64,000 nt of DNA from Nereocystis luetkeana. Lineage: Eukaryota > Sar > Phaeophyceae > Laminariales > Laminariaceae. Shown here in pieces: positions 243 to 63,920 of the stretch. How positions within the stretch are numbered: the stretch's first letter is position 1; each line of letters starts with the position of its first letter. The position numbers and the translations under genes were made by a program. Location of the stretch: the NCBI GenBank assembly GCA_031213475.1, contig JARUPZ010000008.1, positions 11,031,938-11,095,937 of the forward strand, written 5' to 3'. The notes beneath the pieces were generated by a model. That model saw nothing but the letters and a program-made list of their open reading frames with translations, was not told the origin of the DNA and searched no databases.

Positions 243-954
243 TTAATAGTAACAGAGTCTGCAGGAAACCCGGGGACGGGGATGGACCCTCCGTGCCCTC
301 GACGTTTGATGCGACTGTATTTAATATATATATGTATGTGGTTCTCTGCCTTTGCTAGAAGCGTATACGAGGTCATTCGCTTCGAACTACACCTGCGTCG
401 GAGATACATATATTTCACCTCTTGACTCCGATAGAAGTGCACAGCACCGATCGATTACAGTTAATAGCACAATGTGGATATCATATTACTGGTGCCACGG
501 CTGGTGTTTCGAAACAATGAAAGAAAGAGGGGGAGAGCAGACCTGGGTTGTGTGTTGTTGCGGTTGAGAATGTGTGTGTCCTACTGCACGCTAATACTAC
601 TGGAAGTTCAGCACAGACACTCGAACTGACTATTTTCTCGCACGCCTGAGTCTGTCTTTCCCTACACTCGTTTTCTTAGTGGCATACCTGGTACCTGGTA
701 GTACGTATGTGCCCTGTACTGCACCATAAACCACGCCCGGGGAGTCGGCAGTAGTAGTCCCTTCCATTGGACCGTTTGAGAAAACCTTTGGTAGATCAAG
801 CCCTAACCTGTTGGCATGCATACCGGTTATCAGGCACCTGGGAATATATATGTGTACTCCCTGAGTCCGGCAGTAGTAGCTGCGTAAATGTGACCCATAT
901 TTTTCCTGTCTCTGTGTTGTGCTGTATGGAATGAAAAACACACGCAGGTGGCAG

Positions 955-2957
955 GATGAGGTCTGTACGAGGTGACGAGATGCCTGAAGAATTAACCGCT
1001 ATTGGCTCCAAGGGCCTAGACGTTGCGGCTTACCGCGCGTGGCCGGGCTTGCACCCGTTCGTCATTGCCGCCTGGGCGGAGCTCGGCGTGAAGACCGGCT
1101 GCTACCATGACATCGCTTTCCGCACGGGAAACTGTGTAGACGAGGTAAAGACCACGCAACATTGAGGGGTGATGGCGATGGCGTCGTGCACGAGAAAAAA
1201 ATAGAGAAAAATGAAAGCAATCGGTCAGATGACTGGCATGGCAGTGAATTCGTGGCTGATGCCTGTGTTTCAGTATATATACCCTATGTGCTAACGTTTC
1301 TAGTAAACTAAAGGCAAGGAAAAACAGAGTCTCCGAAATAATGTATGTTTCTTCGTTCTGGGTCGGCCGTCCAACTAACCACACGGGCAATGACGTTCAA
1401 AAAGAAAAAGCGATACGTACCATGCGTGTTCCATACAGCAACATGTCCCCGGGCTTAGGCTCACATTCCTATCGGGGAGCTTTTTTTCCAAAAATTCCAA
1501 AGTTTGGAAATAATTGGAGATATATATTATGTATCGATATACGGAGGCGTTCTGTCACTATTCGTAATATTCTCCAGAAAGAAGCAAAAATATCAAGTTC
1601 GTTAACATTCCAACATTTTAGGGAAAAAAACAGGAAAATATGGAAGATGAAAAAAATTGCGCGAAAAAAAATGTCGAAAATTTGAAGAAAAAAAAAACTC
1701 TCCGATAAGAAAGGCCCTTAGTAGTTTGCCGTTTTACAGGCAGACCGATTTTAACGAGTAAGTACAACACCAAAAACAAAAGCAGTTCCTCGCCCTGGGC
1801 CCATGACTCTGCCGCGATCCTATCTGCCGACTGGCTATTTATGTGATATCAGCGTTTGCGTTTGGGATATATATATCGTGTGCCTCCGGGGTAGAAACTA
1901 TTCACTACGACTCAAGTCATTGACGCAGGTCGCCCCGGTGGTTCAAGTGGTTATAACCTCGAATTCTACTTGTTTGAGTCCTGGGTTCGAGCCCCAGGAG
2001 GGTCGGACTTTGACTTTATTTGCAAAAATAAAAAAAGGATTCAATTGTTGAGAGCGCCTTGCAGCGTGGGTATAGGCACAATTCGATGCGAGTCGACGAG
2101 GGAAGAAAAGGCTGAAATCTTCTCGCGATAAAAATGAAGGCACGTACCGTAGCGGGAAGGGGGGAGAAGAGCCTGCTATGTGACCCCGGATCTGAGTTAC
2201 GAGTTGGAAGGAGAGAGAGAAGAAGATGTGCGAAGATAATGAATGGGATGGAAAAGAAAAAAAAAAGAAAAAGTCATTGACAAGTATTTACACCTGCCCA
2301 TACCGCAGTTACGTGTTTCGTTAGTGATACCCTGTCAACTCCTTGAGAACTTCACCCACGTTTTTGCCACAAACTAGTTGCAATTAGTATAGGGTGTTGT
2401 ACGCTGTGTAGGGAAAGGATGAACATCATTTTTTCGGCAACGCTTTTTAAATCAAAAATTAATTATTACTACGAAGTGTAAACTCGTACTCTTATTAAGA
2501 TATAACTCAAAACCGATATACCTGGTATTGTTTTATTAATAGAGTGTTTGCGATAGAGGTAAAAAAAAAAAAACTTTACTTGCGCTAAAAAAAGTGAATT
2601 TCCTTCCTTTCCTGATTTCGGTGTGTTTGCGAGTGAGGTAAATCAATTCCTGCAGGCGACGCCTCCGAAAATAAGAAGGGAAGGGGGGAGGTGAGGCAAA
2701 CGCGCCAAAAAAAAGAACGAAAAACTAAAAAACAGCTTGGGAGTAGCAACGTCGGCCCAGCAACGTTTCGCCGGTAGAGTTGACAGCGGTGCCACCACTG
2801 CCAGCCCACGACTGCAAGCAGCAGCACAGCAAGCGGCAGCTAGCAAGCGCTAGCCGCAGCTAGAGGCAGCTTGAGCAACAAAAATAAACAGCGTCAGCAC
2901 CAGCACCAGCAAGCACCAGCACCATTGGTCCACCAGTCAGCTTCCCTTTTTGGATTG

Positions 2958-2998
<41 letters not shown>

Positions 2999-5900: not shown

Positions 5901-8900
5901 ACGCTCCCTCCAAACGTTGGTGCCTCTTTTGAAGAGACATTCGAAAAGAGAATCGCGCACCTCCAGCCTGACAGGCAAGCCTCTTGTAACCTGTTGATGA
6001 TCGCATCGTGACCACGGCAAGACGTTCGAAAAAGAAAACGCTTTTCAGTCGAGTGCTGCAATGAATGCGCAACTTGGTTCACACTCGTATTTCTGAATGC
6101 GCTTCGCCGAACTCGCTCTCTCTCCCCCCTGTTGGCAGTGCGATCCTTCCCATGCAATCCACAAGTACCTCCGAGACAAGTACATCCCCTTCGAGGACAC
6201 CCTGGTGAGTGCGGACATTGCCCACCTCTTGCCGTCCGGTTGTTCGTATTAAGCACGGCGCCACGCTTCGAAACCCTCGATCGTGATTGATGGTGGTAGC
6301 TGTTCGATCGTGAGACGGTGATGTGGGAGGGGCGTAGTCTCGATGGTGAGCGGAAAGAAGGGCGTTCGTCCCTAGCTCGAGTGCAGACAGCCCACTGCCT
6401 GAGTGCGCTAAACGAGGTTTCGGCGAAAGTCGATCGTACCGCTCATCACACAAGTTTGCAGCAGGTCTGTGATGGATGTAGCCGCGACAGGGGATCCAAC
6501 GATGATAGTCAGCCCCGGGTGTGAGAAAGTGGCAATGAAGCCATCGGCGGTCATGGGGACAGCCGTGTCTCGCTCGGGAACGCAAGCGCTGGTTCGACCA
6601 GTAGGAAGGTCAGCGCGTCTGTGCGAGGCAAGCGCCCGTAAACCATGGTCACGCGTGACAAGGGCATTGAGGGAAACACTCGAGTTTCGGGTTTTATGAC
6701 AAATTCTCTACATGGTTTTGTACATGAAGGGTCACGAACTAGGACGTATTTTGGTGGAAATTGCGAGGGTGCTCAGGGTCCTGCGCTTGTCTTCCGTGCA
6801 TCGGTTACGTATACAATGCAAGGTCGACTGCACGGCGGTCTGCTCCTCCCTTCGGCAAGGTAGGCCTTCTGTTGATAAATACCTGGTAGGCAACAGCAGA
6901 GCCGACTATCATTGCCGCTGTATGACAAGCGTTGTTCGTGTTGCAAACGTTTCCCCCCCATGTGGCAACGCACCTGTTTTTCTTGTCATCTAATTTCGTC
7001 AAACAGGACTCCGCCAACGACTTGCCCTACAACTTCGGGCCTGATAACTCGTGGAACGTCAACTCCACCTATCTGAGTCCGTACGACTGGCTTTACGGTG
7101 CTTACGCCCCTCCCTTCTGGGCAGACAACTTCGACGCCTTGGCGCTGAGTGAGGTGTGGTTTAGTCAATCAGGCGCATTCTGCGGCGCTATACTGTCACA
7201 CGTACGTATCAAATGTGTGTTTGCATCGCTTCGTTTGCAAGGGGTCTTGCTCCTGTTTCCCGGTGCTTCGTTCGCCATGTACTTGGTATGGGTTATTGCC
7301 CGTAGGTGTGAGGCGGGTTTATTGAGCACTATTTCCCCCAAAAGACAATTCAGCGGCCATGCATGAAACCGTGTCGGGTGCATGATATTGTTGAGCAGGG
7401 TGCGTTGCAAGTCGCGATGCGTTGTCTTTTTGCAGTCGATTTCCGACGGCGCAACCACCGCTACCACGGCCTCCGTTGGGCGGGTATAGAACTCGTGATT
7501 AGCCGCTTGATGCCGTCTGTGAACCCAGACACGTATGGAAGGTACTGCCTGTCGCATACGGGCGACAAACGATAGTACCACAGGCATTGCTGTGAGCAGG
7601 GTTGTCAAATATTGTCAACACACAAGGCAACCAATAGCGGTGGCGAACGAGTACGCCGTTTCCGCATGGACGGATAGCACTGGCCAAACCCCATGCGCCG
7701 ATGCTTTGCAAGCTGCTGATGCCGTCAATGCATCGAGACACGCGTAAACGCTCAAGCGACATGTACTGCTGTTCCTGGCACTGTCTGTGTTTGTGTCTCT
7801 GCCTGATGAACGGTCGACGAGTGAGGTACATGGTGAGGGAGTCATTCGTTTGGCCTCCAAATGACCACAGCCGAGGTATCAACTATATTCACCATGTTTC
7901 GGTCGTAACGTTTGCCCGTCTTCTCCTTGCGAATGTTGGCACAGGACTCGAAAGTCAGGTGGGCTGCACGTGACGCAATTGTGGCGGCGTCCCGAGAGTA
8001 CGAGATCGACGGGACCCCTTCCACGATGCTCACCCTGGAGATGCTTGCCATGAATGGTCACAACAGGTGCATACCCGGGGAAATTTGGTCTCTCACAAGT
8101 ATCGCAATCGACGTGTCGTTATGACGTAGCGTTGTCCAATAAATACCTACCGAGGTGAAATGTTTGGTTCGCACCAAACAAGGCGCACCATAACGACCGT
8201 TCAAGCGGCCCTGAGTAAGGCGCAGATAAAAAGGAGTGTCCACGGCTAGGTAACCCCAAGAAATAGTTTCACTTAGTGTGTCCGTTCGGCAAGACAATGT
8301 CTATACTAGATAGGTACAGACAGGTTGGATGCGCTCTATGGATGTGGACAACGTACGAACGGCGTTACGCGGGGCTAGCGTTCGCGCTCGGAACAGCAGC
8401 TTAAGGCACAACAAATGAGGCCACGCACAATATTTAGGCCGATACCGATCCCCGACTGCTGCTACGGCGGTAGCAGTTTCAAGACTGGTGGGCGCCGGAC
8501 TGAACCAGTGATATGTTGTCTAGACTGTGAATAAATCTGTTTTGTGTGCCGCTGACACCAGAACGACGTGTGTGTGCCTGGCATTTCCGCCGTCGCTTGC
8601 TGGATTAAAACCCACCCCCACAACGTTGATGCGCGTAAACAATCGAGTTTCTAGCTCCAATTTCGGGTTTAAACCAAGGGGAACGTGGCCAAAGCGTGAA
8701 GCGCTCGCCAGGGGGTATTATTCATGCATACTATTTTTTGCGAAGGTGTTCCGGGTGCGAGGGTATTCATTTCGTGCATTCCTCAGAAGCTGTGCCCTGC
8801 GCCAGGCTACGGTAGGCTAGGATAGTATCTATCTCGCAAATAAATCGCATTTGTATCTAGAATTATCGTCCATTTCGATTGTTACAGGCGTCTTGGCCAC

Positions 8901-11900
8901 GAACGCCAGCGTTGGAATCGTTCCCATTTAGGCGCACACCGGTCAATCACCCCGCCGAGCTCCGCGCCTCTCCGCTCCAAACAGCGACGGGGTACACATG
9001 ACCAAAGAAGATTACGACTTTTTCCTCGACGGTGACTGCAGCACGGGGGAGCACGTGTCGACGCGCATCAGCTTCCACGACACGGTTGTGGAATTCGCGA
9101 ACAACTTTGCTAACGGTGAGACAGCAAGATCATATATCGTAAGGGGGCGTCGGTGAGCAAACCTCGCGTCCAGTCCAGGTGTGGTGAGTATCTGATGCGT
9201 GGCTTTAACAGCAAACCTAACAGGCAGGGCAGGTGAACATGGGGGCGGTACGGTCAGCCCGTTAGCAGTCGACGTGAAATACCCGAGCCTGTAGTAGAGA
9301 CTCGAAGTAAGCGTACGCAACATTTCAACAACGGCGAGCCCTCATCGAGGCATGCTAATCGGCCTCCGGGAAGGGGCACCTACACTGCACCCGTCGTGGG
9401 CTGCATGGGCCTGGACCAGTCCATGTAGGGGGTAGCATTCCCGTGCGTCGTTTAGGGGCAATCATGAAACAAGTTTCTCCCGAATGGATTGTTTTCGGGT
9501 ATCCAGAAAATGCCGATTCCGTGGATATTGGTCGTGTGGTACCGCAGAGAAATATTATGTGGTCTTGTCCTTCGCAGAGGCTACAAAGGGAAACCATTCA
9601 CGTGGACGATTCTAGAGATAAACGACGTCTCACTCCCCGAGAAACTTCGAAGCGATGTCGAGATATCCGGTCGCGATTCCCATGTCCGGACGCCACCGCA
9701 TGTTATACAAGTCCTCGGCCAGGGATTGTTCGCTTCGGTGACCCACCGCCGCCTGTCTGCCTGCCTGCGGGCACGCCCCCCCCCCCCTCCCCCTTGCGAC
9801 GTCCCTTGTGCTGCATACAGGCATCGGCCAGGGTCTTGGAGGGTATTTCTTGGTAAGTGATGTATCTGCAAAGCTTGTATTTTCAAAGTTATCGTCCGAA
9901 ACTTCTTTCGGGCATTGAATCACGTCGATTGGGGATAAGCCCATCGCCATGCACGCGTCCGTAGTTGTTTTGCAGAGGGTGGCCTCGCAATCTCGGGCGT
10001 GTCAGATCGGCGGCGGGGATGTTCGCACTGTGTCGGCACGTCGTAAACGCGCTCTATCACGCGAGTCTCAAAATTATACCGCTATTGCGTATTCCCCGAG
10101 TTTCTTGCGCACCGTGTTCGTACGCACGTCAGCCTTGAACCGTGTTGACCATTTCCTGGTAGAATTGCGCCAAAGGTGGGGTCAAGAGGGAGTGCCGATC
10201 GAGGACATCATGAGTAGTATTTATAGGGTGTTGCTATTGCTTGCAATGCGTGGGAGGAGCGGGTTCATTGGGTGATAAGGTGAAAGGGGATAATGTTCTC
10301 TTAGTTGAGTGAGTGTGCCTCCTGAGATAACGCGCACGCGGTCGACCGTGCGTAGGGTTCAACCTTGCTGGTTTTTCCGGTAGTAGGTGTTTTACCTATC
10401 TGGACCGCTTCTTTTGTGTGAGACGTGGGGATACAGCTAGGTCGCACACAAGAATCGACGTAGGAGGGTGCTGGTATCGTTGCGCTCAAATTCTAGTTGT
10501 ACCGTTATTCGACTATTCAAACTGAGCGTGCGCTGTGGTCGCCTGAACGCTGGTTATAACCGTTTTGCTAAACGTAATCGACGGGTCCACACCTAGGCGC
10601 CTGTGCTACCCCCAACGACCCTTGTTGTTTTCAGTTCTGAACGTAGTCGATCTTGCTGTCAACGCTTTCGTCCTAACGGAAATTGCAGGTGCCCGTGGAT
10701 TCGGACGGAAAACAACTGGGCTTCGACCTCATCGCCGTGCTCATCCGAGAAAGGCTTGAGGCCATGGTGAGCAGGCGTCAGCATCAGTGCCAACGCCCGC
10801 GACAAGAGCAAACACTTTTACACATCGCGCGTACGAATGTTTGTATTTTCGTGTGCGGTAGGGGTTCGATAACATCGAGGAGTAATCGGCTACTATTTCC
10901 GCCCCTTGTGACCCCTCCAGTATGACATGGGTACGCCCTCCCCAACCCCCCGGTAAGCAAGAGCTCTGGGCAGCGCTTCGCGATGCGAGACGACGCTATT
11001 CGCCAATTTCGCCGCTCACGGTGCTCATCTGGCGCGCTTGTTCATCATGACCGGGTCGAGAGCGACCGCACTTCGCATGAAGTCGTACCTGTCTCTTGGT
11101 GTATCTCACGCATAGAAGGGAGATATTGTTTCCTCTTGCCCGCCTTGCTCTACAATACCGCCACGATGCGGACCTCCGTGGCGCCACCCGCGAGTGAGTG
11201 TAAACACATACCTGGTATACATATAAGCCTAAGCCTGCCCAGTTCGACACAGCGTTCCTTCTCTCCGCTTTCCCCCCCCCAATCAATGTACCCTTGCACT
11301 ATACTTCATGTGTGCGGCCGCAACCGTACCTTCCCTCCCCACCCTAAACGCTCGCGCCCACTTCGTTGTGCCGGTTCTGCAGGGGGTAAAGCTATACTTC
11401 AAGCACCAGGTTTACGGCACGCGCCCGAACCCGAAGAGGGGCAAAAACGCAGTCGTCAGAGTCCAGAACTTGGAAACTGGTGAAAAGTTCAGGATCAACA
11501 CCGAGCACGCGGTGCTAAACGTCCCTACCGAGGCTAGTCATGCTGCTGTGCTGTTGGGCGTTTGTGCGACGGAGCGTTTCCAATATTGACAGGGCGGGGG
11601 GGGGGTCTTGAAGGCGGGAGACGAATGCGAAGAGATTGATGTCCGTGTACACGTTTCTACCCACTGATAACGCACAAGCCAACTATTTCCGGTCACGCTT
11701 GAGTTTCGCCCTGTACCGTTTAGTTATTGATGCGCAGACGCTTGAACCACCGCGTCCGAAGTTCTCGAGGGACGCCTCCGTTTGTTTTTTTTTTGGGCAC
11801 CCTCTGACGGGGATCAAAGTGGATGCCGTCGCCCTCAGAGTTAGGTTGAGACGTTCGCTCCAGGGTATTAACACCCACCTGAGCCACCCTGGTGGTCGTT

Positions 11901-15601: not shown

Positions 15602-15638
<37 letters not shown>

Positions 15639-19369: not shown

Positions 19370-22259
19370 AAACGCAGGGAGTCTGGCCACCACCTTCCGG
19401 GAACGTCTACAACAGTGGGTTGCACCACTAGGCCGCAGGCCCTCACCGTTTTCCAACCGGAGCCATCATCAGAAGCTTTGTTTTGATTTATACTCATGAC
19501 GGTTCGATCACGCTTGGTTGTGGTCCTCCTCTTCGGTTTGCCGCGGTTCGATCGAGAGGTTAGATTGGGAGGTGCAGAGGGGCACATCCTGAACACTAGA
19601 TACGCGGCAGACGATCAACAGTGGGTTGGAGCCTCCTGATGACATCGTCCTCTTTGTTCGCGAAGCCGGAGTGCTCTAGCAGTCATGTTTTACTCGGCCA
19701 CATGCTGAACTGCTACCGCAGCAGTGCGTTATCCTATTGTCGTTCGTGCTCCCTACTGGGTTTTACCGTGGTGGATAGACGATAGTGCAAAGGAGGTCCG
19801 GCATGATTATTCCTGTTGCTGATAGGTTCCCGCCGGGCCTCATTTGCTACTGTCGGTATCACCGTAGTCATTAGACGAGAGCCCCCTGAGGAACGACTTA
19901 TATTTCGTTGCTGCCGGCTTCGTACCGCACTATGAATACTGCAGCGCGTACCGTAGCGTTCTTCATGGTACGTAGGGAATGTAAACGAGAGTGGAAACAA
20001 TGTCCGGCGTTTTTCGTTTCTTCTCGTCGCTTAGACCCTCTGGGCTGTCTTCGCCGCCATGCGGCTAAAGAGATTATATCTATTTTGCCGACCCAGGCCC
20101 CCGCCTTGTGCATACAGCAACACTTCGATCTAATATACCTGGTATATAGTATACATACCAGGGTATACAATAGGTCGTAGACGCGAAGATGAGGCGTTTC
20201 GACTATATATAGTGTGTTCCTGTCTTAGTACATACCAGGTACAGGTACATTTCTTGGTCGTGCATAGGTCGCCGTCAGTAGACAAACCAAAAAATGCTGC
20301 GCGCGACGTTTGTCTGCCCGCGGGTCCCTGCTGTCCGAAATTCGCCGCGCGCAACCCCGATCCAGCTTCCAAAATCGCACTCATCTTTCGCAATCATGCA
20401 GCAAATACAGCAGCCGTCTCAGTTCTGAGCCAAGGCGTCGCGGGCACGGAGAAACCGAGAGTGAACAAAACCAAAGACTTGCGTTTCGTTTATTGCACGC
20501 CCTTTGTTACGTCAAGGATGGTCTTGCGGCCGTGGTTGTTGTGGCCTGGGTGGGATGGAGTGGGGTAGAGAGCTACGTTGTGCGCGTTTTCCCTGGTCGT
20601 TGCGATTCGGCCATTGCCTGAGAGAGGGAATTGCATGATCCGTAGAGATGTATGGCTCGCTGCGAGTGGCTTCTTCGCGCTATTATTTTGTCGCGTTCAT
20701 CTGTCTCTTCCTATTTTCATGGGAGTATTGCGTACAGGGTTTGTTGGATGTGGCTAGTCAAGGCGACAGGCGGTTTTCGCCGCGAACAACCAACCGTGTT
20801 ACTGCTGTAAAGAACATGAACAACGTTTTTTAACTCTTCTGTAGGAGGCCGCGGGTGTCGAGACTGCGTGTGGGCACGCCAACGTTTCTGTATACCAGCA
20901 CCGGGTATATGTATTGCGTGTTGTTGTATCGCCGATCAGGTTTAGCGGGTTTGTATGAGGCGATATATGGTTACATGTTTACATGTTGGGTAAGTGCACG
21001 TTTCGCATCGTGCGTAGGCCTTTGAGGATCGACTGGTTGGCACGATGCGGAGGTCTACAAGCTGTACTGCCAGATACCAAGGGCTTGGCTGAGCGAGGCC
21101 GCTTCCAGCCGACATAACCTACGTCCGGCTGTCGTCACTAGCACCGCAAACACCCTTGGTTCAAGGTCGGGCAGACGTTGAGGGTATACGCCCCTCATTA
21201 CCAGACCAGTCGCGCGGGGAGCGGGGGGGGGGGGGTCGTTTGTATATTATTATGCTGTTCAAGGCAGCGCCCTCTAGGCGGCGAGCATTACCCGTGGATC
21301 TACAAAGAAGTGCAGAGTTTAATGATGAACTTAACGTGTTAGTCCTTCAAGACTAGTGACTACCAGGTCGTGCAAATTGCACTTATAACCCAGATAGACG
21401 TGCCCAGGTAACGGTGAAGATCGGTCGATTTTCAACGACGACTGATATGGAAAGTGAAGAGTGCTCCGGTAGTGCTCGGCGCGCACTGTACAACCCCGGA
21501 GGGCATTTCCTGCGACCAACACCATCCGTTTGACACTATCGAGTACGGACGCAACAGGAAACAACGCTTGCTCGAAGTCGGTTTGCTTGAAGCGAAACAC
21601 AGGACAATACACCTGGTAGGAAAACAAGCAGTCAGAAAAGCAGGCTGAGATTATTTACTGGAAAATATAAAAATTGGAAACCGACATACCGAAATCGCCG
21701 TCCTGTAAACCGCGCCCATTTTCAATCACGAAATCCAGCCTGGAAACAGTTTTCGTGGTTATTACTAGGTGCCCGGTACTTTGGGCGTATGATACATACG
21801 TTCTGAGCAATGTGGAAAGGGCAACATGATACTGTACGCAAAAGCCAACCATCCCCTCGCCCCCCACTGCTGGTCTGGCTCATACAGGTCGGTTCAAGCG
21901 CAAAACCTCAAATGCTCTAAGTAACTAATGCCGCATGCACAATATATATATATATGCGTGAATGTCATACCTCGTGTTAATATTTGGTGTTATACTGACC
22001 GTAACGATCAGCGGGAGAGGATGGCACAGCCGGTCTTTTATTGGGGGCCTAGACCTGGCGCTAGCATCCACAGGTCTTCAGAAAAATAAAAAAATGGCCA
22101 GGCGTCTCCGCGGCGAAAAAAAAGAGATTGCCGTTATTTTTCTGAACAAACCTGATTCAGATACGTACTCCCAAGGCATGTCCGTGACACGCCCCACACA
22201 AACACTCGAGTAACTGACTGCGTAGGACCAATATCAAGCAATGTTCAACGTTAAACGTT

Positions 22260-25479: not shown

Positions 25480-25670
25480 GGGGTGTACCAGGTACTCGAT
25501 AGCACGCGTATCCGTATACTCGTATGACGAAAGACCCTCGCATCCCTACAATGCCGGGACGGAGCACGTCGCTTTTTTAACAGACCAGGCAGACATTGCT
25601 AGCACCAAGCGCAAGGCACTGAGAGGTGATCGGCGACTCGCATGAAGGGTGAGCTGCACCCTACTAGCAA
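25480..25670. repeat. Dispersed single unit of the 125 bp satellite
   Basis: Contains AGACCCTCGCATCCCTACAA, GGGACGGAGCACGTCG and the same tail as the 35.3 kb array (CAGACATTGCTAGCACCAAG, GAAGGGTGAGCTGCACC). It differs at its start by TACCAGGTA in place of TA (25486-25494). It is followed by a long G-tract at about 25693-25719. Confidence 0.7.
25486..25494. repeat. TACCAGGTA scar inside a satellite copy
   Basis: Sister copies at 34900-34901 and 35149-35150 read GGTGTACTCGATAGG; this copy reads GGTGTACCAGGTACTCGATAG. The difference is exactly CCAGGTA added at a TA. It is one of about two dozen occurrences of this 9-mer in the window. Confidence 0.75.
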
Positions 25671-45857: not shown

Positions 45858-45897
45858 CAGTGGCAGTAGCAGTAGCATTAGCGGCAGCAGTAGAAGC

Positions 45898-45936
<39 letters not shown>

Positions 45937-48603: not shown

Positions 48604-49664
48604 GTTGGACCGGGATTCAACCCTCGGAGTGAACGGGGTGGAGATAAACGCTTCCGCAAGCTGTCCCAGCTTTTGTTTTTCAATGGTGTGCAGGTGATTG
48701 TATTTTTGTTTTGGTAAGATGGAGGCGGGAGGGGGAGGGGGGGGGAGGGACGGGGAAGGCGGAGTGTTGGAGTTGGACTTTTAATGTTTGAGCGGGGGAA
48801 AGCCGACGTCTTCCTTATTGGGCGGGGGGCCGTTCGGTAGGTATATTATACAATACCAGGTATTAAGGAAACGTCTCTGGGATACGAACGCCTATTTCTT
48901 AAAGAAACCAAGAAACCGGGATATCGGACGGCCGGAAAGGACAGAAAAAACACTTGGTCATAGATCGTGCCGGTTATGTACACGGGTGTACTAGTACATT
49001 CAACACTATAACGTACTAATACTACTACATGTACAGCGAGCGAGAGAGGTACTCGTACGACGGCGGAGCGTACGCAGTACTCTGATGTACGACACTCATG
49101 AACTGGAAATTATTGCGCACTTTTCACAGACAAAAACGATTCGACCTGCGTACGAAGTCTCAGTGCTCAACACCCCCCGGCGTTTCTACTTCTACAGCAG
49201 CAGGATAAGCAACAGCCTCGAGGGAGTTGTGCTTCGTCCGCCCCGCGCTTGAGAAGGGACCACGCCAAAACTCGAGGATACAAAACAGGTCATACTCGAA
49301 CAGTTACGTATGATTATTGATGATTGATAGAACAGTAGTCTGCTGAAGATAGGGTAGCTATCGCTATCATCTAAGTCGCGCTAAATCGATATGCTTAACT
49401 ATACTACCGACCGTAGTACCTACACGTTCTTTTTTTTGCAGATACGTACGTACTCCTGTGCTGCTGTTGTTTTATAGGTATCAGAATACGTAGTTGTTGC
49501 TTCGACCCAGCTTCGACACAGCGGTTGGTAGCGCACCCAAACCCTTAAACATAGCGCTTCACTGCGAGGGCTTTCCCACAGGTGGTCGGGATTAGGGTTC
49601 GTTAGGCTTGGTGTATGTAAACCCTCTTGTGGAAGAGCTTGGCCACATCGTAAAACGGCTCGTT

Positions 49665-49727: not shown

Positions 49728-52478
49728 GCATAAGTACGATGCGATATATACAAGCAAAAGGTCTGCGGTGTCGACCCCAGTCACGCGAGACGTTCACGTA
49801 CAGGATGAGCGACACTGCCGCGACCTATGTATCTGGTACGCTAACAGCAGTCGGTGATGGTAAATATGTACCCCGGGTACTTGCTAACAGCGGTCCGTGA
49901 CGTTGGTTTACAGCTACACCGCCGTCACCCGTCACACGTGACACCTTGACATCCGGCACCATCATTGGAGGCAGGTAGAGGAGTGCCATATATGAACACC
50001 TAGGTTCAGCACCGCTATATGTAACCAGATACAGCAGGGCGGCATCGGCGAGGCGTAGAGGCGTAGGCATGATTACCAGCTTTTGGAGTAACTTCTGAAG
50101 ACGTACGTAACAGAATGTCAGAGGGGCGAAGACTTGCGTGCCATATGGGCTAGCTCTGTGACACCGACAGCAGTGATACGTCGTAAAAGGCACCAGGGTC
50201 GGCGCGCTCCCGTGTGGGCATCTCGGCGAATAAGCACCACACGGACGGGAAAAGCCCCGCCCAGTGCGAAAGATCTCGCGAATTTCCATCAACAAGCAGT
50301 AGAGCTATTTGTCGACACCAGTACTCCGCGCAGCAGCCGTCGTAGAACGTATACGAATCTCCTACATTGCAAGTACGCAGATGTTTTGTTGCCGCTGCTG
50401 CCTGCATCGACACTCAACACTTCGTGTCTCTTGATACGGTGGGACCTTCGAGATGAAAGCGTGCAGGTGTGGTGTCTGTTCACTGCTACACTCTTGTATG
50501 TAAACTGTAGACTCCACCGCCTCTCACCTTACCGTTACGCGCGGGCAACGAAGCAGCAGCAGAAGAAGTTGAGGACGTTGCCGCGACTACCACACAGCCG
50601 CAGCAAGCGGCCCTGCCCATGAGCCCTCTCATCTTCGCCTGCGGTTGCTTGGTCCGAGGATGTGAATATCGACTTCAAAAAGAGAGGCGGGTTGAGAGGA
50701 GTGAATGTCTACTTGCTGTTCGGCGACAACTCGAGCTATGAGAACACGTCCTATTCACTAGAAAAAACAGGACAATGAGACAATTACACCTACCCCGCGA
50801 GCTGAGCGGTGGCTGGTGGACAACAACCAAGCGCAGTAACAGCCTCGCCTGGTGCCTTACGGACCGGTCTCGTGTTTCCTGGTCGAGCTTGAAGCCCTAA
50901 ACCGTAACGCCTGCCGATACTCAACAAAACTATTGGGTTTCGACTTTAATACGCGTTATGATCCGGAAGAGGGAAAGAGGGGTGCTTGCAGACTTCGGCA
51001 CGGTCGGTGTGCGCTTGCTTGCTTGTAGACCGTGTCCGAGAGCAGTTTCGCGCTGTTTCGGAGCACGAGTTGGTCGCTGAGAGGCAGGAGAAAGGACCTG
51101 CTGGTGTCCGGAAGCCAGTGTCCACTCCACTTTTGAAAACTGCCGTAGAGTGTGACAGGGAGAAAAGGAGGATGGAGAGCGGGGAGAGAAGGCCCGTACC
51201 GCCTTCCAGCGTCTCCCGAGAGGATGACAAAAGCCCCCACAGGTGTGTAGCCGTGTCAGCTACGCCAATCGGCGCCAATAATTGGCGCGCTTGATCCTGT
51301 AGAGGGTAGATGTTGGCGACCGGAGAAGCGTCTACGTACTGGCGTGTTGCACCACCTGCCCGCAAGAACTCAACCTGGTATTTGACTACCTGGTACACCT
51401 TGTTCGCTTGAGAGCTAACTATGATCCTTGTTGCGTCCTGTTTCTACAGCAGTAGACTTTCGTCTCTCGTCTGAGCGCCATCGCTCAGGGTCGCGCACCT
51501 CACTCACTCAGGCGCGCAGCGCTTCCGAACCGCTGCGAGCGGTCGGGAGAGTCGGTGCCGCGGCGCTGTCTCCGCAGCCGCTGCTACCACCGCCGCCGCT
51601 CCCTAGCTCCTGCCGCATTTTCTGCGCGCCTCGTGACATGCTTTTTTCGTGCTCGCCTTTGAAAATGTGGTGCCTCTCGGAAAGCCGCCGCCGTCGTTAT
51701 TCAAATTTCGTCGGAAGCCGGGCGTTGTTAGCGTTGTGTCTACCCTGGTACAGCAAGTGTAAGACGACCCTGGAACTTGGAAAAATTCGTCGGCATGCAT
51801 TTTCTCGACTGCCCACTCAACGCCGACCCCAAAATCTTCTCCTTCTCTCCTCCGTGCGGGACATGCCCGAACGCATCGCGTCGCCTGCTACAGCTGTTGT
51901 GGAACAATGCATGCGAAGACAGCAGCAGCCTTCGTTTTGAAGAAAAGTTACTGCAAAAATACGTGCCACTCGTTGGTTCTGCGAGCTCGATTTTTCTAAA
52001 GAGCAACGATTTTTCAAAGAATAAACGGGCGAAGAAACGGCTGTATGTTCATACAGCGGTATGTGCACTCTGTAGACAAGTGTCTACCTGGTATCCACGA
52101 GCGGCCGTATCGATCTCACTATTGATAACAGCAGTATTAAAAGTCGAAGCTGTACTGGAGTTTCCAGGATACTGCTGTGGTATATTCCGAACAAGCAGTT
52201 TTGCTCTCGTCTCTCGTGCGAGCACGTCAACACCTATGGTGCCCGACGGCGCGTTCGGAGGCATCCCTGGCCCACCGTCACGCCTTGAAAATGTGCAATT
52301 ACAATTGTGTCAATCCGTACGGGGCATGGATCTACAGCGATCTCTATGATACAGCAGTCTACGAAGCAGTATGAATATGCTCGAGGGATGGTGTATGACA
52401 TGTTACGAATACGCCTCAACATGCTTCTGAAGATTAAGATTAGATGTGAACATGGAGGAAGGAGTTCATTTTAGGACT

Positions 52479-52541
52479 GCAGTCCCCTTTTGGGGACAAC
52501 ACACTTGGAATTAGAGTGGTTCGTCCCCAAAACGGGACTGC
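52479..52541. mobile_element. Short hairpin repeat, family 2, copy B
   Basis: Ends GCAGTCCCCTTTTGGGGAC and GTCCCCAAAACGGGACTGC are inverted. The inner part (CACTTGGAATTAGAGTGGTT) is the reverse complement of the inner part of copy C, so the family is more than a chance palindrome. Confidence 0.55.
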
Positions 52542-55500
52542 GGTACTAAAGGGGCTATAGAAACGAAGAAACAGTTTCCTGACTTCCTCGTTTTCGTACG
52601 AAGGGGCGTTTTTTGTTGGTGTTATTTTGCGCCGAACTACTCGTACTGGATACGCGAAGTACGCACCAGGTAGGGCGTCTCTGAAAAGTACCCGGCATCA
52701 TTCGTACATATATGGTATGTCGTACGTAGACTAAGGAGCAAGGAGTGTCCATGTTCTGCTTGATGCTGACGATCAGCACGGTAGCAGTATCATAGCTGAT
52801 GTACAGGGACAGCAACGTAACAACGTGAACCATCAAGACATACTTCAATGCATGTCTGGTACGAGGACTACTACTGCTGCTGCATATTTCGGTATCAACG
52901 TATGAACCATGGTACCAGGTACAGCAGTACAGCTACTGCTGCTTGTATGTATACTCGTACTCGTACAATATACTGAGTGCTACTATTAGTAATGATGTGC
53001 CTTGTATCTGGTATGGTTATACCTGCTGCTGTCGATTGCTTGCCAGGTATTACTTGCAGAAAGCAGACCCATACGGCTACTGCTGTGCGTGACGGATTTC
53101 GGTCGGTTCGATTTTCGGAAACCCCAGCAGGCGTGTACAGTTAGTCGGTTTTTGTTGGGATTTATCTAGAAAATTCTGGAATTTTCCGCCGAGTAGTATG
53201 AATCAAAAACTACATTTTGTATGGATTTTGTTGCGACAAACGTCGGTGATTGGCTGCACGATCGCGCCGCCTTTGTTAGACGAGACAAGAGGTGGCGCGC
53301 GCGAGGAAGATCGAGACCGCTGTTGCAGCTTGTAAGCTGAGACGATCGACGCAGCAAAGGGCGGCCCAACACCATGCTGGTGTGGTGGGTGTCTCCCCCC
53401 CGATAGTGTGTCCCTTGTTGTGTGTCTCGGAGCCTGCGCTGTCTCTGTGAGAGGGTAGAAAGTCGGCGGGGCTTGCGCAGCCTGCTGTCCCTTTACTTAT
53501 ACCCTCATCCGCCAAGAGTCCACAGGCACAAGTGTTCATTGCGTGCGCGTAGCCAGACCACAGCAACAACCAGCACCAGACTACAATACCACCAGCGGTA
53601 TGATCGCCTTCTTGGATGCGAGCTCTGGCCCTTGCCTGCAGCGGCGGAACGAACCCTGTGCTTGCAGTGGCAGGACGCGTTTCCCTTCAAATTTTCAACA
53701 GCAGCAGTACTGCAGAAATACTCCCACCTTTTCCGGAAATCTAAGATATGTTTTATACTCGTATTAATGCCCAAACAGTCGTTATATTTCCGGAGATGGC
53801 GGTAGTAGTAGCGCCACTCTGTCCGGAAATGCACGAAGTTGTCGGTACCGCTCTAAATACCCGAAGGTTTCTTGCGTTATGGGCATGGTGGTATTGTTCA
53901 CGCGTAAAAGTCAAAACCAAATATGAAACCAAATTCAGCGAATTCTCCCCTGAGGAAGAAAAATCCCGATAATTGGATGCCCTAAAATGTGTTCTCCAGG
54001 TGTATAGGATCGGAGCCTAGTATTTCAAAATCTATTTCATATTGTGTTTATTTTAGGGCACCCGTATCTATCTACACAAAAACGAGCCTGCAGCGGTAAA
54101 CAAGGTACTTGTTAGGCATAAACAGGGTAACGTGGGCGTTCGGCAAAAAAGGTAACGAAGATAGCGAGATGCTCATGTGGGAGTACGCGACGAGGTGCAA
54201 GCCGAGGAAAAGTAAGAAAAATGCCATCGGGGATTTCCAATGTTTTGGAGGCGTTGGTACCTGCCAAACCAAAACCGGCTATCCAGATTTTGCATTCTCG
54301 AGAATAACGCCTCCTATCCGGTTTTCGGTTTTCGAAAATGCTATCCGGTGCCCGTCTCTACACATCATACGTGCCTGGTATGTGCATACAGCAGTAGAAC
54401 TGCAAGTAAAACTGTCGACGTCTCCACCTTCCCACATGACGCGACCGTCCACACGTGATTGAAGTATCACACGCAGCTTCCAAATACGAGTACTTCGGAG
54501 AACAGCAGTAAGAGTTTCGACAAAAAAAACGACCCCACAGCTGACGTCAATCTTGACTTTTTTCAACTGCATAATTGCGTGAATTATGTGCCGTATACTC
54601 GCACGTGGCGCCTGGGGACACGGGCCCAACCAACCCCTGTCGCGTATGAGGAGCAAGGAACACCGTCGGGGCGTCTTGCCTGCGAGAAAGGCCATGTGTT
54701 GCCATACCAGGTACCTGGTATGAGTTTCCTGCAGGCTAAGCGTGTACTCTTATATACCTGGTATAATAGAAGTACCGGGAGTGTTTAGATGTAGTCGCTG
54801 CCGAGATTAGACTAGGTTATGCCACCAGGCTCTGTAGAAGGTAGATTAGAGATTACTGCTGTAGGTACACATTCATGAATGAAAAAACAACAGGTGTGAG
54901 TTTGAGGGTTTCGTCATAGCTCATCTTTGCGAGCTGTGTGTGGTAGTTCGATCGCGCGTACCACGGGGTGTATATGGCCTCATGCAGGGGTATACCGACG
55001 GATAGTATTAGATTTTACGCGTAAGAAATCACCTGTCCGTTGATCGCAGTAGTTCCCTCAGTAGGTTAGACTACGTATTTTGACTTGGACGGATGTTAAT
55101 GTGAGACCACAGAACAGAACAGCATCCATGAACGCGGCGCCAATTCGCTGAAGGAGCTACGAGTACAAAACAGCAGCAGTGCCATGTGCTTGCATTCAGC
55201 ACCAGGTACACCGTACCGGTGTTTATATACCCCCGGCTGACCGCAAGGAAGCATGTCAGGTACCGGCATACCTGCTTTGCGTTTTTCCTGTTGTTCCTGG
55301 AACTCATACGTCACTCACGGCCATAACGTATTCCGTTGTCGCTATGTAGACAGGCTCCAATAGTTGTGGAGTGGAAGAAAAACCAAGCCAGGCAATACCA
55401 AAATAACTAGTGACCGGTGCCGGCTACCTGGTACACTGGTAGATGTACCGGGTACTCCTATTATAACGTGTACCGGAACCTGGTATGTAGGTAACAAAAC

Positions 55501-55920
55501 CTGGGAATCCCTGTTTCCAACTGCAGAATATTCTTCAGTCCCAAGGGTGTTGTCGCTTTGTCCTTGAAGGACCTATTTTTGCCCCTTCAGGCGTTAAGGA
55601 CCCCTTTTAAGGGCCACATTATTTTTTATCCCTTGAGGCCTCAAGGACCCCCTTTAAGGACCGCATTCTTGTTGTAGGCCAACAAATAAAGTTCCAGGAT
55701 AAAATAGAGTGAATCGTAGGTACGTACATGTACGATGCAGAACCCAAAGGGTGGTAGTACATGGTCGGAAAAATCGCGAATCTCAATCTTGCTTAATATC
55801 CCACCGGTATGTATATTGATGCAGCTGCTGCATGCACGTATTGCGAACAACTTTGTGTACAAGGTATACGAGTAACGTATGATGTGTTAGTTAACCCTTA
55901 TACTGTGCTAATAGCACTGC

Positions 55921-55986
55921 CTGTAGTCCCGTTTTAGGGACAAACCACTCAAGTTCCAAGTGATTTTGTCCCCAAAACGGGGCTGC
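55921..55986. mobile_element. Short hairpin repeat, family 2, copy C
   Basis: CTGTAGTCCCGTTTTAGGGAC at the left, GTCCCCAAAACGGGGCTGCAG at the right, with AACCACTCAAGTTCCAAGTG between. No open frame. Target duplications are not clear. Confidence 0.55.
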
Positions 55987-56564
55987 AGCCCTAGAAGAAA
56001 ATATGGTAACTTAAGAAACGACTGCTGTGCGGCATTTATATGTTTATGGCAAACCTTGTACCAGGTACCACGTATTGTGCTGCGAAGGGTCGTCCAACAC
56101 TCTCCCCAAGTATCCCCCCCAAAAAAACGCGGGTCACAGTTCAAAACGTGTGTACTGAGCTCTTGATGAACTATCAGGTACCTGGTGGACTCTTTACGTT
56201 GCTACTGCTGTAGTATCGAGACGGGTTCGGTTCCGAACGGGGCCGTTCGCCGTCTCATTCCATTCTTATCTAATATCGCATGCAGTACCCACTACTACAG
56301 CTGCGCACAGCAGAAAGCTGTAGACATGCAGCCAAAGAGGTAGAGAGACGCACAGAGAGACGGAGGAACCAAGAGACCCGAGAGAGCGAGAAAGACAGAG
56401 CAATCACCAGCATCTTTCCTTGGAGTAAGTGAGAGACTCAGGCCTAGGCCGAACCAACGGTCCAGCGCAGGGCAAATTATTATACCTCCACAACAACGTC
56501 TATCCGGGGAATACGTTGGACGTGAACCTGCTGATATACATCCGCATGAACATGAGCATTGAAA

Positions 56565-56645
56565 TTGAGACATGAACATGACATGAACATGACATGAACA
56601 TGACATGAACATGACATGAACATGACGTGAACATGAACACGAGGC
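56565..56645. repeat. 11 bp minisatellite ATGACATGAAC
   Basis: Six to seven near-perfect units in the intergenic spacer; open frames of HVMFMSC type come from it. Confidence 0.9.
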
Positions 56646-57054
56646 CACACGTGAGACGTGGTGCTATTAATAGAGCGTGTATGTACCTACTGGCGACGTT
56701 GACGAGTTCTGGTCTTCTGGTCACATCTATACCAGTATTGTTGATTACTGGTAGACGACAGACACCGTATTTGAGTGGAATGTTTCGCCTTGGGCATGCG
56801 CATGCGTGTGCCGTGCTTTACGCGAACTGTATTTGTTATTTGAAACATGATAGTGATGTGGTACGCAGCAGTAGCCCAAGGTACGCCTGCCTACCAATGG
56901 AGATATCATCGACCAGGTACGTGGTAGCGAGTATGCTGGGAAGCGCCTTGATCGGGTGATGCACGGCCTGCTCATTCCGGTGAGCCATGTCAACTATCCA
57001 GTTGATGATGCAGACATCAAGGGGTGTGCCTTTACTATTGATAGTAGGATGCGG

Positions 57055-57180
57055 TATGTACTCTGGGGATCTGGGGTACTCGGGTGCCAAACTTGAAGGT
57101 TTTCTCATACTGGGTATGCACTCGAGTTCATACGGGTACGTACCCGGGTTCATACTCGGGTATGTGTCCGAGTATGCACA
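57055..57180. repeat. Minisatellite of GTACTCGGGT/GGGTATG units
   Basis: TGGGGTACTCGGGTGCC, CGGGTACGTACCCGGGTTCA and CTCGGGTATGTGTCC form a short degenerate array resembling the 36-37 kb arrays, in the intergenic spacer. Confidence 0.5.
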
Positions 57181-59538
57181 CTCCTATAAATTCCCGTATG
57201 TTGATATATCGATAGCGCCGACGGCAGGAGACGCCTGTGGCATCCACCATGCACACATGCCGGTCCATGGCAGCAATGATACAACTGGCATTCTAGACTG
57301 TGGCACGCACACGTCGAAGGCGACGATGTTATTGTGTACTGCCTGTGATACGTGCCTGTTTCACTGAGTGTTGCCTGAGTTCGAGGTAGTTCCGATATTG
57401 ATGCGTCGATGCCAATGAAAACTTATGAAAGTTGAAGGAACGCCCGTTTATATGACACTGCTGCGTATCCGAACGTACTCCGTCTCCCCCCAATCCTTGG
57501 GTTGTGTGTTTTCAGCGACACAGCTCATTTTTTGTCCTTTTTTTGGTTGCACAATGTGTTTCTGAGTTTTTTGTTTGTTTTTTTCAGCTGTCACATCGCC
57601 GAGATTTTGACCACCACGTTTTTATTTAAATGTCGAAGTCGAGAAATGTCTTGACCCCAAATCCCAAGTAGAGCATCCGCCAAGGTGGTTGAGGTCTGTC
57701 AGTTGAACAAACACAGCAGTAAACTACCAGTGCGGACTACTGCTGTACGACCAAGTCTTCGTTTTTCCGCAATCAAGCACACAAGCCCACAAAAGCGGGC
57801 AGATTCGACGGTTGAACCTTGATACATTCCAGCAGCTGTTGCAGGGTCAATGATTGTGCAATGGCTGCAGCAGTGGCCTGAGCCAATCAGACTCAATCAA
57901 CCTTTTGTTGGTGCTAGGTCCTTCGTCTCGTACACAACTTGTGCTCCTCAACTTTTGTTTCGAACGCCAGGTACTTGGTACCAGGTATGTGGTAACCTCT
58001 ACTTGAGGACAACGGTACCTGGCAGGACACATTACGGCGATTCAACACGGTATACGGTGTGGCGCTACAGATGCAGTCGTGGTGCCTAAATTTTTACATT
58101 ATAAAAAAACGCAAGCTATACATCGCGACACACAGCAAGGCGACTAAGGCTTCAAGGCGACCCAACAAGGCTGGACACAACTAAGAGCTTATAAATGACG
58201 AGCTAGCCGCGTTATGTAGGAATAGGCGAGTGGTCGCCTTATTCAGACGACTTCGACACAGAAAATACTAAATAACCAAGAAGGCATCCGGAGGCACCCC
58301 CCGCCCCTCCGCCCGACACACAAGCAGTCCATTGTTTTCGCCACTGCTTCAGCTCTCGATGCAGTTTATAGGTCTTCAGATATTCAGTGCCCTTCCATCA
58401 GTTCGAAGAGTACGCTGAAGCCAGCAGCACCGACGAAACGTGCCATGAGTTGCGCATGCCTCAACTGTTTTTTCATGACAGAATACAACGTATGCCTGCT
58501 GTAAGGGTGGACTATCTGAGCATCATGATTTCGGGGGTTGTTGGGGCGTTGCTGTTAGCTCGTAGCTGGTACCTGGTATTTCGTATTATTGTGTCCTAGT
58601 GTCGGGCGTTGTTGGCGGTATAAACGGCCTTTTGTAGTCAGGTGCTGTATGGGGTGCTGCAACAAATGGCAATACTCTTGCCGCACTACTCGTGGCTGAA
58701 ATCAGTTGCATACAGCACCACAGCTGCCGTCTACCGCAGATGGTCCCGATGTAACGCTGATGAGCTGGGCGACAAGCTTTGACGGGAAAACATGGCCACG
58801 ACAGAGCACGCGTGCTCCCACAGCCCCAAACCTCAATCTCGGCACTCAATAGGGTGTTTTTCTTCGCTCCACGGCTGAAGGGTACCTCTGGTTTAGTCAC
58901 CGAGTCGCGGGGGGGGGTTGTAAAACTGTAAAGAGGATGCTGGTACTTCGTGTTTTTTTCCCGGTGCGCTTTGACCTTAGCCCCGGCTCGCGTCCACCAC
59001 GCCCACCACGCCTGTATGTGTAGACCTTGACCCGGCTTCTTCGACAAAGCTGTTGAATTACAGGACTCGACAATTTTTGGCTACCCTAACCCTAATCTCG
59101 ACCGCCTGGAATTTCTCGGTGTGTATGAACATGGAATGCAGAGCTATGGTACCACACCGGTGATGAGACAGCACGCATCCTCCGACGAAGTTCCAAGCTG
59201 ATACTTTTGCGACACCGAGTAGGGTGCAAACGCCGAGCGACATGTATGTCTATGGTGGAACGATCTCGACTAAATCGTCGCAATGCCGCCACTCTTCATT
59301 GTGTGTCCCCCCCCCCCACAGCAGTTTCGGAGAAAAAAGTCGTCTCTTGAAATTCGTCCCAGGAGTGTGATGTCTCGTCTCGTGCGGTATACCTGTACCG
59401 TACACTGTTGAAAAATAGCGTGGGTTATGAACGTTTTTCATCGAAGCTGGGGGAAGGAAGAAGAAAACACTCCCTTGACCACCTTACTTATGTGTGTGTT
59501 TGCTTGTTTACTTGGCCTGTTTGCTTTTTTTGTTACAG

Positions 59539-62500: not shown

Positions 62501-63920
62501 ACCCCCTACCCCATCTGGACAGGCACACGCCCCACCTCGAAACCCCCCACGATCAACACCAACCCCAGCAGCAGCTGCGGCTGTGGGGTCGACTACCATT
62601 CGAACAAAATCGCCATCGCCACCACCAGACAAAGCTATGGTTTTCCCTACTGTGGAGGCGGTTGTTCCTGGGGCGGGGGGCGATCCTAGCAGGCCCCCCG
62701 CGGTGAACCCCTTCCCTAACTGGGAGGAGGATTCGGAGGAGATGGTGGGGTGCCGGGTGCGGGTGTACTGGGACGGGGACAACGAGTGGTACAGCGGGCG
62801 GATCGTCTTATTCGATGACTCAAAGAAGAAGCCATATCTGATCAGGCATGTGTCTCACCTGATATGCTATGTGTCGGGTTCTGTTATATGTGTTCCTTAC
62901 TAGGGTGGAATGGCTTGTGGCTTGCTTCGCACGCTGCACAGATAGATCATCTACAGATATATCATAGCCTGCAGCCTCGAGATGTTGTGTAGGATCTGTG
63001 TAGTACCAATCTTGTCCTGAGGACATGTGCTACAGTACGTGGTCCACACTACAACGACTCTCACCTAGCAACATGAGCTACAATAGATCGGTAGCGGTTT
63101 CTCGGGGGGGTTTTTCGCTTCGTGTTGTTTTTGGTTGGAGTTACGATGTGCGTGTGTTCCCTGGGTTTCGGTTGCGATTTTTTGTTCTATCTTTGTTGAT
63201 ACATGAGTACTTGTAGTACGTGTGTTGGTGTGCGTGCGCGTGAGTTTGCTTGCGCGTGTAGAATTCCAGGCATGCGTGTGCGTTGGGTTGCGGTGTGTAT
63301 GCGTGCGGGTGTTGGAGTTTATTTTCCCAAGAATGTGTCGTTTTTTGCTCTGATGGGTGCCGGGTTGACTATTGGGTGCTTTTGTTCGAAACTCTGGATG
63401 TGGTGGTGGATAGTATGCAACCGCTTCCTAGGCGCGTTGCGGGGAATGAGGAGACAGGAAGCTTGATATACTGTACTGCACAGCCAGCGCTGCCCAGAAA
63501 CGTGGGGTATACGATGCTATGTATATCACTAGGTACCCGTAGCCTATTGTGGTCTGTCTGTGTGTGAGTGTTTTATGTACCTGGTATGTGTCTGCGTGTT
63601 GATGTGTGCCAGTGCTTCTGTGTATCGGCGATGCGTGCAGTCTGCGCTATGGTGTGTGCCGTGCTTCTACGTAAAGGCGATGCGCTTTGTCTGCACATTG
63701 GTGTGCGTGTGTTTCTTTTGTGCACAGGCACGGCGTGTGTTTTTCTGTGCGCTAACGAAAGCGTCACCGCTTCTGCTCCTCCGCTCCTCTCTTTCCCTTC
63801 TGCCGCAGGTACGACGAGGATGGCTCGGTGGAGTGGATGAATCTCCCCAAAGAGCCCGCCATCGTCGCCAGGCAGGTGGTCTGGGTCAAGATGCGCTCGC
63901 ACCCCTGGTGGCCTGCCCAG
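59539..63920 (+). CDS. Ser/Lys-rich protein with Tudor-like and PWWP domains, partial (3' end outside window)
   Basis: Exon A runs 59539-61477: a strong pyrimidine tract and ACAG acceptor precede it, and AAG|GTGAGA ends it. It encodes about 645 residues rich in Ser, Gly, Pro and Lys, including SSSTKSP-type heptads between about 60060 and 60750 and basic patches such as AKKKSK at its end. Exon B, ending at 62845, encodes VRVYWDGDNEWYSGRIVLFDD, a Tudor-like barrel. Exon C, 63809-63920, completes it (YDEDGSVEWMNLPKEP) and opens a PWWP domain with VVWVKMRSHPWWPAQ. The B-C junction is phase-exact with a GC donor (ATCAG|GCATGT). Tudor and PWWP domains read methylated histones and bind DNA, so a nuclear chromatin role is likely. 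The 5' end is uncertain: ATG at 59678 (MAERLRAPPGG) could be the start, but the good acceptor at 59538 implies an upstream exon. The frame beyond 61477 into CCCT repeats is intron read-through. Confidence 0.75.
60060..60750 (+). repeat. Coding minisatellite, 18/21 bp units for SSSTKSP-like heptads
   Basis: Units of the type CCGTCGTCTTCAACGAAGTC recur about 30 times inside exon A of the PWWP gene. In the gene frame they give Ser/Thr/Lys/Pro heptads, reminiscent of tails phosphorylated at SP sites. All six frames are unusually open because of the repeat. Confidence 0.85.
61525..61800. repeat. (CCCT)n tetranucleotide array in the PWWP gene
   Basis: About 270 bp of nearly perfect TCCC units, starting about 50 bases after the donor at 61478. 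The repetitive PSLPPSLP read-through is not protein. Confidence 0.95.
62575..62845 (+). CDS. Tudor-like exon of the PWWP protein; 5' boundary uncertain
   Basis: The frame that encodes the Tudor-like strands is open from at least 62575 and reads KSPSPPPDKAMVFPTVEA before the domain. AG acceptors at 62573-62574 (after CAGCAG) or 62627-62628 are possible, but both enter in a phase that does not match exon A's end at 61477, so a small additional exon or another donor is needed. The 3' end at 62845 is well supported because CTGATCAG plus the G that opens the 63809 exon restores an Arg codon and a continuous Tudor-like strand. Confidence 0.65.
62930..63080 (+). repeat. Dispersed repeat with ATGAGCT core, copy 4
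   Basis: CAGATAGATCATCTACAGAT, GAGATGTTGTGTAGGATCTG and CTAGCAACATGAGCTACA repeat the order of blocks seen in the other copies. It lies in the intron before the PWWP exon. Confidence 0.45.

Follow-up and report, generated by a model that had tools for sequence, protein, structure and literature searches.

TACCWGGTA in the brown alga Nereocystis luetkeana, a 7-bp insertion at TA and a probable excision footprint of a TA-targeting transposable element

Excision footprints of the transposons Tc1 and Mos1 are of the same kind as those of Sleeping Beauty, and a central mismatch has been invoked for the footprints of Tc1/mariner elements. In the retrieved passages of the published reports, the footprints of Sleeping Beauty are identical to its own 3-nucleotide overhangs (PMC7827188), those of Stowaway and Osmar5 are 1-4 bp fragments of the terminal inverted repeats (TIRs) lying between TAs, with reinsertion at an old footprint (PMC1925063), a rice Stowaway miniature inverted-repeat transposable element (MITE) leaves relic end residues in yeast (PMC3660474), and footprints of 0-4 bp and 1-4 nucleotides are given for the pogo-type Passer (PMC9976928) and for Ppmar2 (PMC9632168), respectively. 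No passage returned by the literature search describes a uniform 5-nucleotide scar. The present work concerns such a scar, the nine-base word TACCWGGTA (W is A or T), noticed in a 64,000-nucleotide stretch of the N. luetkeana genome (assembly GCA_031213475.1, contig JARUPZ010000008.1, C8:11031938-11095937), hereafter called the window. It is most probably, at roughly 0.7, the excision footprint of a TA-targeting cut-and-paste element.

The TA boundaries of the scar are shared with the internal eliminated sequences of Paramecium, which are TA-bounded and leave one TA when they are removed from the somatic genome, whereas here 7 bp stay. With Tc1/mariner elements, as represented by the passages on Sleeping Beauty (PMC7827188), it has in common the TA duplication and a few element-end bases between the TAs; it differs in that five bases are left, near-uniformly, in about 182,000 copies within one genome and with no source element found. 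The likeness to Stowaway and Osmar5 lies in TIR fragments that separate the two TA copies, in a TA being used more than once and in reinsertion at an old footprint, although the grass footprints are varied and 1-4 bp long in the passages of that report (PMC1925063), whereas one product dominates here. The scar behaves like a Tc1/mariner-type footprint, but it is only a candidate member of that class, as neither the element nor its transposase was found and the scar is of another length.

The word was counted genome-wide over 465,085,209 bases, with the reversed pattern as control, in a 264-kb sample consisting of the window and 20 stretches of 10 kb picked by place, and in a pooled set of 356,617 bases (about 356 kb), which includes loci chosen as carriers of the word (L001-L004, L007 and L008), pogo-type loci, a hot-site locus and the dense region L051-L053 and contains slight overlaps (L007/L008 and L046/L047). 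The first-pass annotation had reported about two dozen exact copies in the window where about 0.5 would be expected; the count is 25 against 0.44 expected, which was reached in none of 100 dinucleotide shuffles, with nine copies A-centred and 16 T-centred on the plus strand. The word has the highest order-3 score among the complexity-filtered 9-mers of the window (0.4-1.1 expected under Markov models of orders 1-4), and the S-centred form (S is C or G) is found twice there. Genome-wide, there are 182,395 copies, or about one per 2.55 kb, against 1,744 of the control, which is about 105 times rarer, and 10,882 copies of TACCSGGTA against 1,899 of its control, so that a W centre is 17 times as frequent as an S centre. 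The excess thus goes beyond composition by shuffles, Markov models and genome-wide control alike. The flanks are mutually unlike in 83 of the 90 copies of the 264-kb sample, the remainder being similar or without full flanks, which argues against the word being part of a longer conserved repeat.

Many one-base variants had also been claimed, and the pooled set indeed contains 170 one-substitution forms (65-73 expected) beside 138 exact copies, including 87 transitions (23 expected) and 83 transversions (42 expected), with no such halo around three control words. Relative to the exact copies, these forms suggest roughly 0.7 substitutions per 9-mer, so that the scars would have accumulated over a long time. 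A sequencing or assembly artefact, of which no supporting sign was seen, is hardly credible, as the transition-rich halo points to ageing in the genome and the flanking target preference described below to a biological origin.

The behaviour of the word as an insertion is seen from comparisons between repeats, with the counts taken from the pooled set since some of the pairs classed as empty by BLAST were badly aligned (e.g. L003:1501). Fifteen TA-duplicating 7-bp indels were listed, 13 of which are TACCWGGTA and correspond to 12 distinct sites (one site is listed twice, and the pair in L009 is weak), the other two being TACAGACTA and TACCTCGTA; in a smaller comparison of L001-L028 and the window, seven of eight such indels are the scar. 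Loci L005 and L006, which overlap L004, were excluded from the 7-bp indel list as well as from the later inverted-repeat scan and the flank comparison. As in Tc1/mariner footprints, the insertion is thus at TA with the TA duplicated, and the filled and empty sites differ by TA-CCWGG-TA. Three related repeats of L053 have 0, 1 and 2 units, respectively, at one TA, and a dispersed-repeat site, (A)GTAC-TA-TGTAAC, holds the T-form in L010 and the A-form in L025 on the same repeat strand, with many copies being empty.

The two filled/empty pairs proposed from the window fared differently. In the alignment of six MITE copies, one of them on both strands, TTAATACCAGGTAGGACC is present only in the copy at 35599-35731 (plus strand), whereas the other five are without an insertion and read TTAA or TAAA at this place, with TAG, CAG or (in one end) a variant coming next. 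BLAST added 10 paralogues lacking the 7 bp, three of which are the window copies already aligned and several of which read CAGGACC instead of TAGGACC at the scar site. For the satellite, the difference between GTGTACCAGGTACTCGATAG at 25486 and GTGTACTCGATAG in two units (at about 34.9 and 35.1 kb) is present, the unit between these two reading GGGTACTCGATAG, but the pair is weaker evidence, as the unit contains TACTCGAT twice and the 25-kb copy diverges just downstream. A CCTGG scar was also observed at L039:2269, at the TA of a MITE copy of the same family that is equivalent to window position 35621, with a pogo-type transposase frame nearby. At the hot repeat site AATGGGAGTACTA, with 2,924 genome-wide matches, 59 were inspected and include one scar, one MITE of this family, one TACGGTA, one G-rich continuation and 55 apparently empty sites, point variants among them. 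A protein-binding motif under selection, or a count inflated by composition or by slippage, would suit a word that is palindromic except at its centre, as many binding sites are; the dispersed-repeat pairs contradict it by showing an insertion, and with shuffles and Markov models falling short and the reversed pattern so much rarer, it is extremely improbable.

When the flanks of 76 non-tandem sites are rejoined, a purine (R) precedes the TA in 82% of them (T in 3%) and W stands at -7 in 84%; RTAY (Y is C or T) is found at 66% of these sites compared with 37% of all TAs, and a TA at -7/-6 in 26% compared with 7%. Such a palindromic target preference is of the kind that a transposase dimer would tend to impose. 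Each scar, with a TA at -7 and its own second TA preceded by G, fits this preference, and it is proposed that scars recur in tandem because they supply such TAs. Of 125 sites, 13 have tandem doubles, compared with about 4 expected on the assumption that RTAY sites do not differ from one another.

Abutting copies sharing a TA had been noted in the window and were found again at 685-700 (TACCTGGTACCTGGTA, copies at 685 and 692) and at 54705-54720 (TACCAGGTACCTGGTA, copies at 54705 and 54712). The remaining exact matches in the window, none of which, like the two doubles, was given a strand, are TACCTGGTA at 2519-2527, 6880-6888, 11209-11217, 20136-20144, 36035-36043, 36254-36262 (in a diverged local repeat with weak empty pairs), 42444-42452, 51387-51395, 52085-52093, 54755-54763, 55425-55433, 58570-58578 and 63578-63586, and TACCAGGTA at 20233-20241, 25486-25494 (in the satellite unit and not in the related units at 34.9-35.2 kb), 35621-35629 (within the MITE copy, with 10 paralogues lacking it), 38830-38838, 48854-48862, 52913-52921 (the second TA being common to TACAGCAGTA), 56059-56067 and 57979-57987.

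A precedent is provided in the same genome by the MITE family just mentioned, the TTACGGGGGACC MITE or TTAC MITE, represented in the window by plus-strand copies found with the inverted-repeat scan at 134-242 (TA-flanked, with ends TTACGGGGG), 39303-39411 and 35599-35731, the last of which carries the CCAGG scar and two tandem TTAA units, TATTAATATTAATA, at 35680-35693 (no strand assigned). It inserts at TA and duplicates it, as seen in L003, where GGGAGTACTA-TTACG...CGTAA-TATGTAAC contrasts with the empty site GGGAGTACTATGTAAC. The word TATTAATA, composed of TA, TT, AA and TA, occurs at 55 sites in 264 kb, or 110 times when counted on both strands (2.4 and 8.4 expected under orders 2 and 3), and is itself an insertion at TA: at L021:4568, 18 of 21 paralogue alignments are 6 bp shorter, and a 12-base gap is found at the TTAA units of the MITE copy in seven of 11 alignments (35680) and nine of 10 (35686). 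The flanks of TATTAATA (110) and of MITE ends (22) agree in C at -1 (0.52 and 0.64, respectively), A at -2 (0.55 and 0.73), T at -3 (0.60 and 0.45) and G at -3 (0.05 and 0), the values for all TAs being 0.20, 0.28, 0.28 and 0.21. TA duplication, inverted repeats and a matching flank preference are therefore all found, and TATTAATA looks like the two-plus-two-base scar, a type known from Tc1, of this TA-targeting family. It was also observed that the MITE at 134-242 and a TATTAATA share the right-hand TA (window 241), as if the element had inserted at its own family's scar. Because TATTAATA behaves as a scar of the MITE, the same kind of origin is, by analogy, likely for the CCWGG scar, the two having in common the TA target, terminal-base scars, tandem scars and the genome in which they occur. 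They differ in that the MITE prefers YAC-TA, compared with W at -7 and R before the TA for the CCWGG scar, and in that the sample still contains many MITE copies.

The form of the product was assessed with TACC-Nk-GGTA in the 264-kb sample: k=1 gives 99 matches (W-centred in 90), k=2 gives 19, ten of which are TACCAGGGTA or its complement, k=8 gives 21, partly abutting copies, and other values of k give mostly single digits. A copy of the longer (+1) variant TACCAGGGTA lies in the window at 20156-20165 (no strand assigned), and the class was also counted genome-wide: TACCAGGNTA occurs 13,781 times (control 2,071), six of seven inspected cases being TACCAGGGTA, and TACCTGGGTA occurs 1,578 times (control 362). 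The +1 form is A-centred in 11 cases and T-centred in two within 356 kb, and the genome-wide ratio is estimated at 7-8 to 1. Because slippage of a symmetric word would yield both +1 forms alike, one strand probably represents the element end, 5'-TA/CCAG(GG), to judge from these counts; TACCAGGGV (7) and TACCTGGGV (11) in 356 kb reveal no excess of a CCAGGG end.

According to the excision reading, a cut-and-paste DNA element would enter at TA, duplicate it and later depart, and the break would be sealed with five end bases, CCAGG or CCTGG, between the TAs, giving a net gain of 7 bp. The element would probably end with 5'-CCAG(GG), and should its transposase cut so that each flank keeps a 5-nucleotide 3' overhang, CCAGG, the two would pair as C-G, C-G, an A.A mismatch, G-C and G-C. 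The W centre is proposed to arise because repair of the central mismatch would give A or T, and the TAs of the scar, matching the target preference of the element, would then favour further scars in tandem.

It may also be imagined that the end chemistry is different, the element ending with CCA and three plus two nucleotides being joined (CCA+GG or CC+TGG) with no pairing of 5-nucleotide overhangs. A W centre and the A-bias of TACCAGGGTA (CCAG+GG) are likewise predicted by such joining, as are the excess of TACCAGTA (32 in 356 kb; 7.9, 10.6 and 13.6 expected under orders 1-3) and a count of TACCTGTA nearer to expectation (14; 7.9, 15.0 and 9.9). Frequent CC+GG and CCA+TGG joints should be seen as well, but TACCGGTA is only mildly enriched (24 on both strands, 8-11 expected) and TACCATGGTA occurs only twice in 264 kb, which makes this chemistry quite improbable.

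The insertion of an ultra-short TA-CCWGG-TA unit, which the first-pass annotation had offered beside excision, would add the 7 bp at TA in a single step, the agent being either a transposase or an end-joining activity able to deliver or copy a 5-nucleotide palindromic end without a full element having been present. It agrees with the lack of an intact element in the scans and with the uniform product, 99 matches with one base between TACC and GGTA against 19 with two, and TA duplication and target preference would appear identical. The mostly A-centred +1 variant, on the other hand, is what remnants of a longer end would give, the sequence TA-CCTGCGTCTAGG-TA in L018 has the appearance of ends plus filler, though inside a local tandem repeat, and TATTAATA, of the same genome, is explained in an ordinary way by a MITE, so that direct insertion is considered unlikely. 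In favour of excision of a TA-targeting transposon, the other origin suggested at first, are the excess over the whole genome, flanks that are for the most part independent, the duplication of TA by the insertions, the target preference and, as a parallel, the TTAA scar of the MITE.

Several points weigh against excision, beginning with the form of the scar. Tc1/mariner footprints keep 2-3 nucleotides from the ends, whereas the product here has 5, with W in 90 of 99, and a 2+W+2 composition would still require an extra base; pogo and mariner footprints are 0-4 bp long and varied in the available passages (PMC9976928, PMC9632168), compared with 5 nucleotides, near-uniform, here. The +2 form has the opposite bias, being T-centred (TACCTGGGGTA 4, TACCAGGGGTA 0 in 356 kb). 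The two scars of a tandem have the same centre base in 11 of 13 pairs, and related repeats of L052 account for two of all 13; part of the tandems may therefore have arisen by copying and not as new events.

The search for the source element adds to these points. As had been said of the window at first, no CCWGG-ended element was recognised by inverted-repeat scans of it or of L001-L028 among the repeats listed, CC-starting ones included (one scan was filtered and made without L018, L027, L005 and L006). Extension of TACCWGG in 356 kb gave no recurrent end outside repeats or the +2 form, and the CC-starting non-scar insertions among the 2,924 matches of AATGGGAGTACTA amount to one, apparently the empty site with a point change, with a pattern that misses ends with T at the sixth base. 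The search for PF13358 (DDE_3) had 0 matches, the control being matched in three of 14 genomes. With none in the 264-kb sample, the rule of three, assuming recognisable ends, would allow at most about 5,300 element copies genome-wide, and the scar-to-element ratio would be at least about 34:1, which is unusual. What is unusual in this system is that the scars are so many and so uniform while no copy of a source was seen.

Two extensions of TACCWGG recur three times each, TACCAGGCAGGAG and TACCTGGGGTATG, the former being rejected as an element end because its left flank is shared and it is part of a longer repeat. The closest candidate elements, among them window 20136-20241 and L016:851-1481 (12 of 14 bases), were judged to be scar pairs with chance-like flanks. 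Among 53 candidates for large TA-flanked insertions in repeats, 11 have TA at both ends; the TTAC MITE is among these, and none is a CC element. The search for PF01359 (Transposase_1) had 0 matches and was uninformative, as its control matched nowhere either. PF03184 (pogo-type DDE_1) was matched 28 times; of four pogo-type frames scanned, three gave DDE_1, one of these three just below its cut-off, and the frame in L039 also has a Tc5-type DNA-binding domain below the cut-off. No CCAGG-ended inverted repeats were found around the transposases at 12 of the 28 loci (1.5-kb flanks, among the 15 inverted repeats listed per locus), where TTACG.GGG-type ends were found once, in L039 inside a MITE copy, and never paired around a transposase. 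A scan of a viral collection for abutting scars gave nine stretches, eight with two copies only, and the viral contig L030 has three TACCWGGTA in 2,270 bases; these matches were taken as chance.

Another TA-bounded unit could be represented by TACAGCAGTA/TACTGCTGTA, observed in the window at 20800, 51445, 52920, 54387, 54854, 56203 and 57738 and 36 times in 264 kb (0.7-1.4 expected), seven of these in one array of L024. No clean insertion pair was found for TACAGCAGTA or TACGAGTA, and TACTCSGAGTA, most copies of which are in L014 and L027, and TAGATSATCTA lie mostly within local repeats; none of these was accepted as a further scar. TA-flanked inverted-repeat elements of about 91 bp with ends like ACCCTTTTAGAACC occur at L019:9097-9191, L021:378-472, L021:1604-1698, L025:7492-7587 and L027:6260-6353, and large inverted repeats with similar arms at L027:37-3740 and L018:3424-5154. 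On the minus strand of the window, 47141-47563 and 30110-30853 resemble, by eye, isopropylmalate synthase exons; the former has a Pfam HMGL-like match below the cut-off (E 0.00034) and the latter has no Pfam match.

A bolder and rather doubtful possibility is a system with self-complementary cut ends that seal uniformly, in which more than 180,000 identical scars persist, the element is all but gone and the scars, as preferred landing sites, make the process self-reinforcing; in its boldest form, the 7-bp unit would be inserted directly, with no larger element. If the scars do result from excision, they would form a dense and datable record of the past sites of the element, with departures far exceeding surviving copies, and one could read from sequence alone how it was excised over time, which targets it chose and how faithfully the breaks were repaired, the repair by the host then appearing almost uniform. 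The approximately 182,000 sites, which at 7 bp each would have added about 1.3 Mb to the genome, would be usable as markers for comparing strains.

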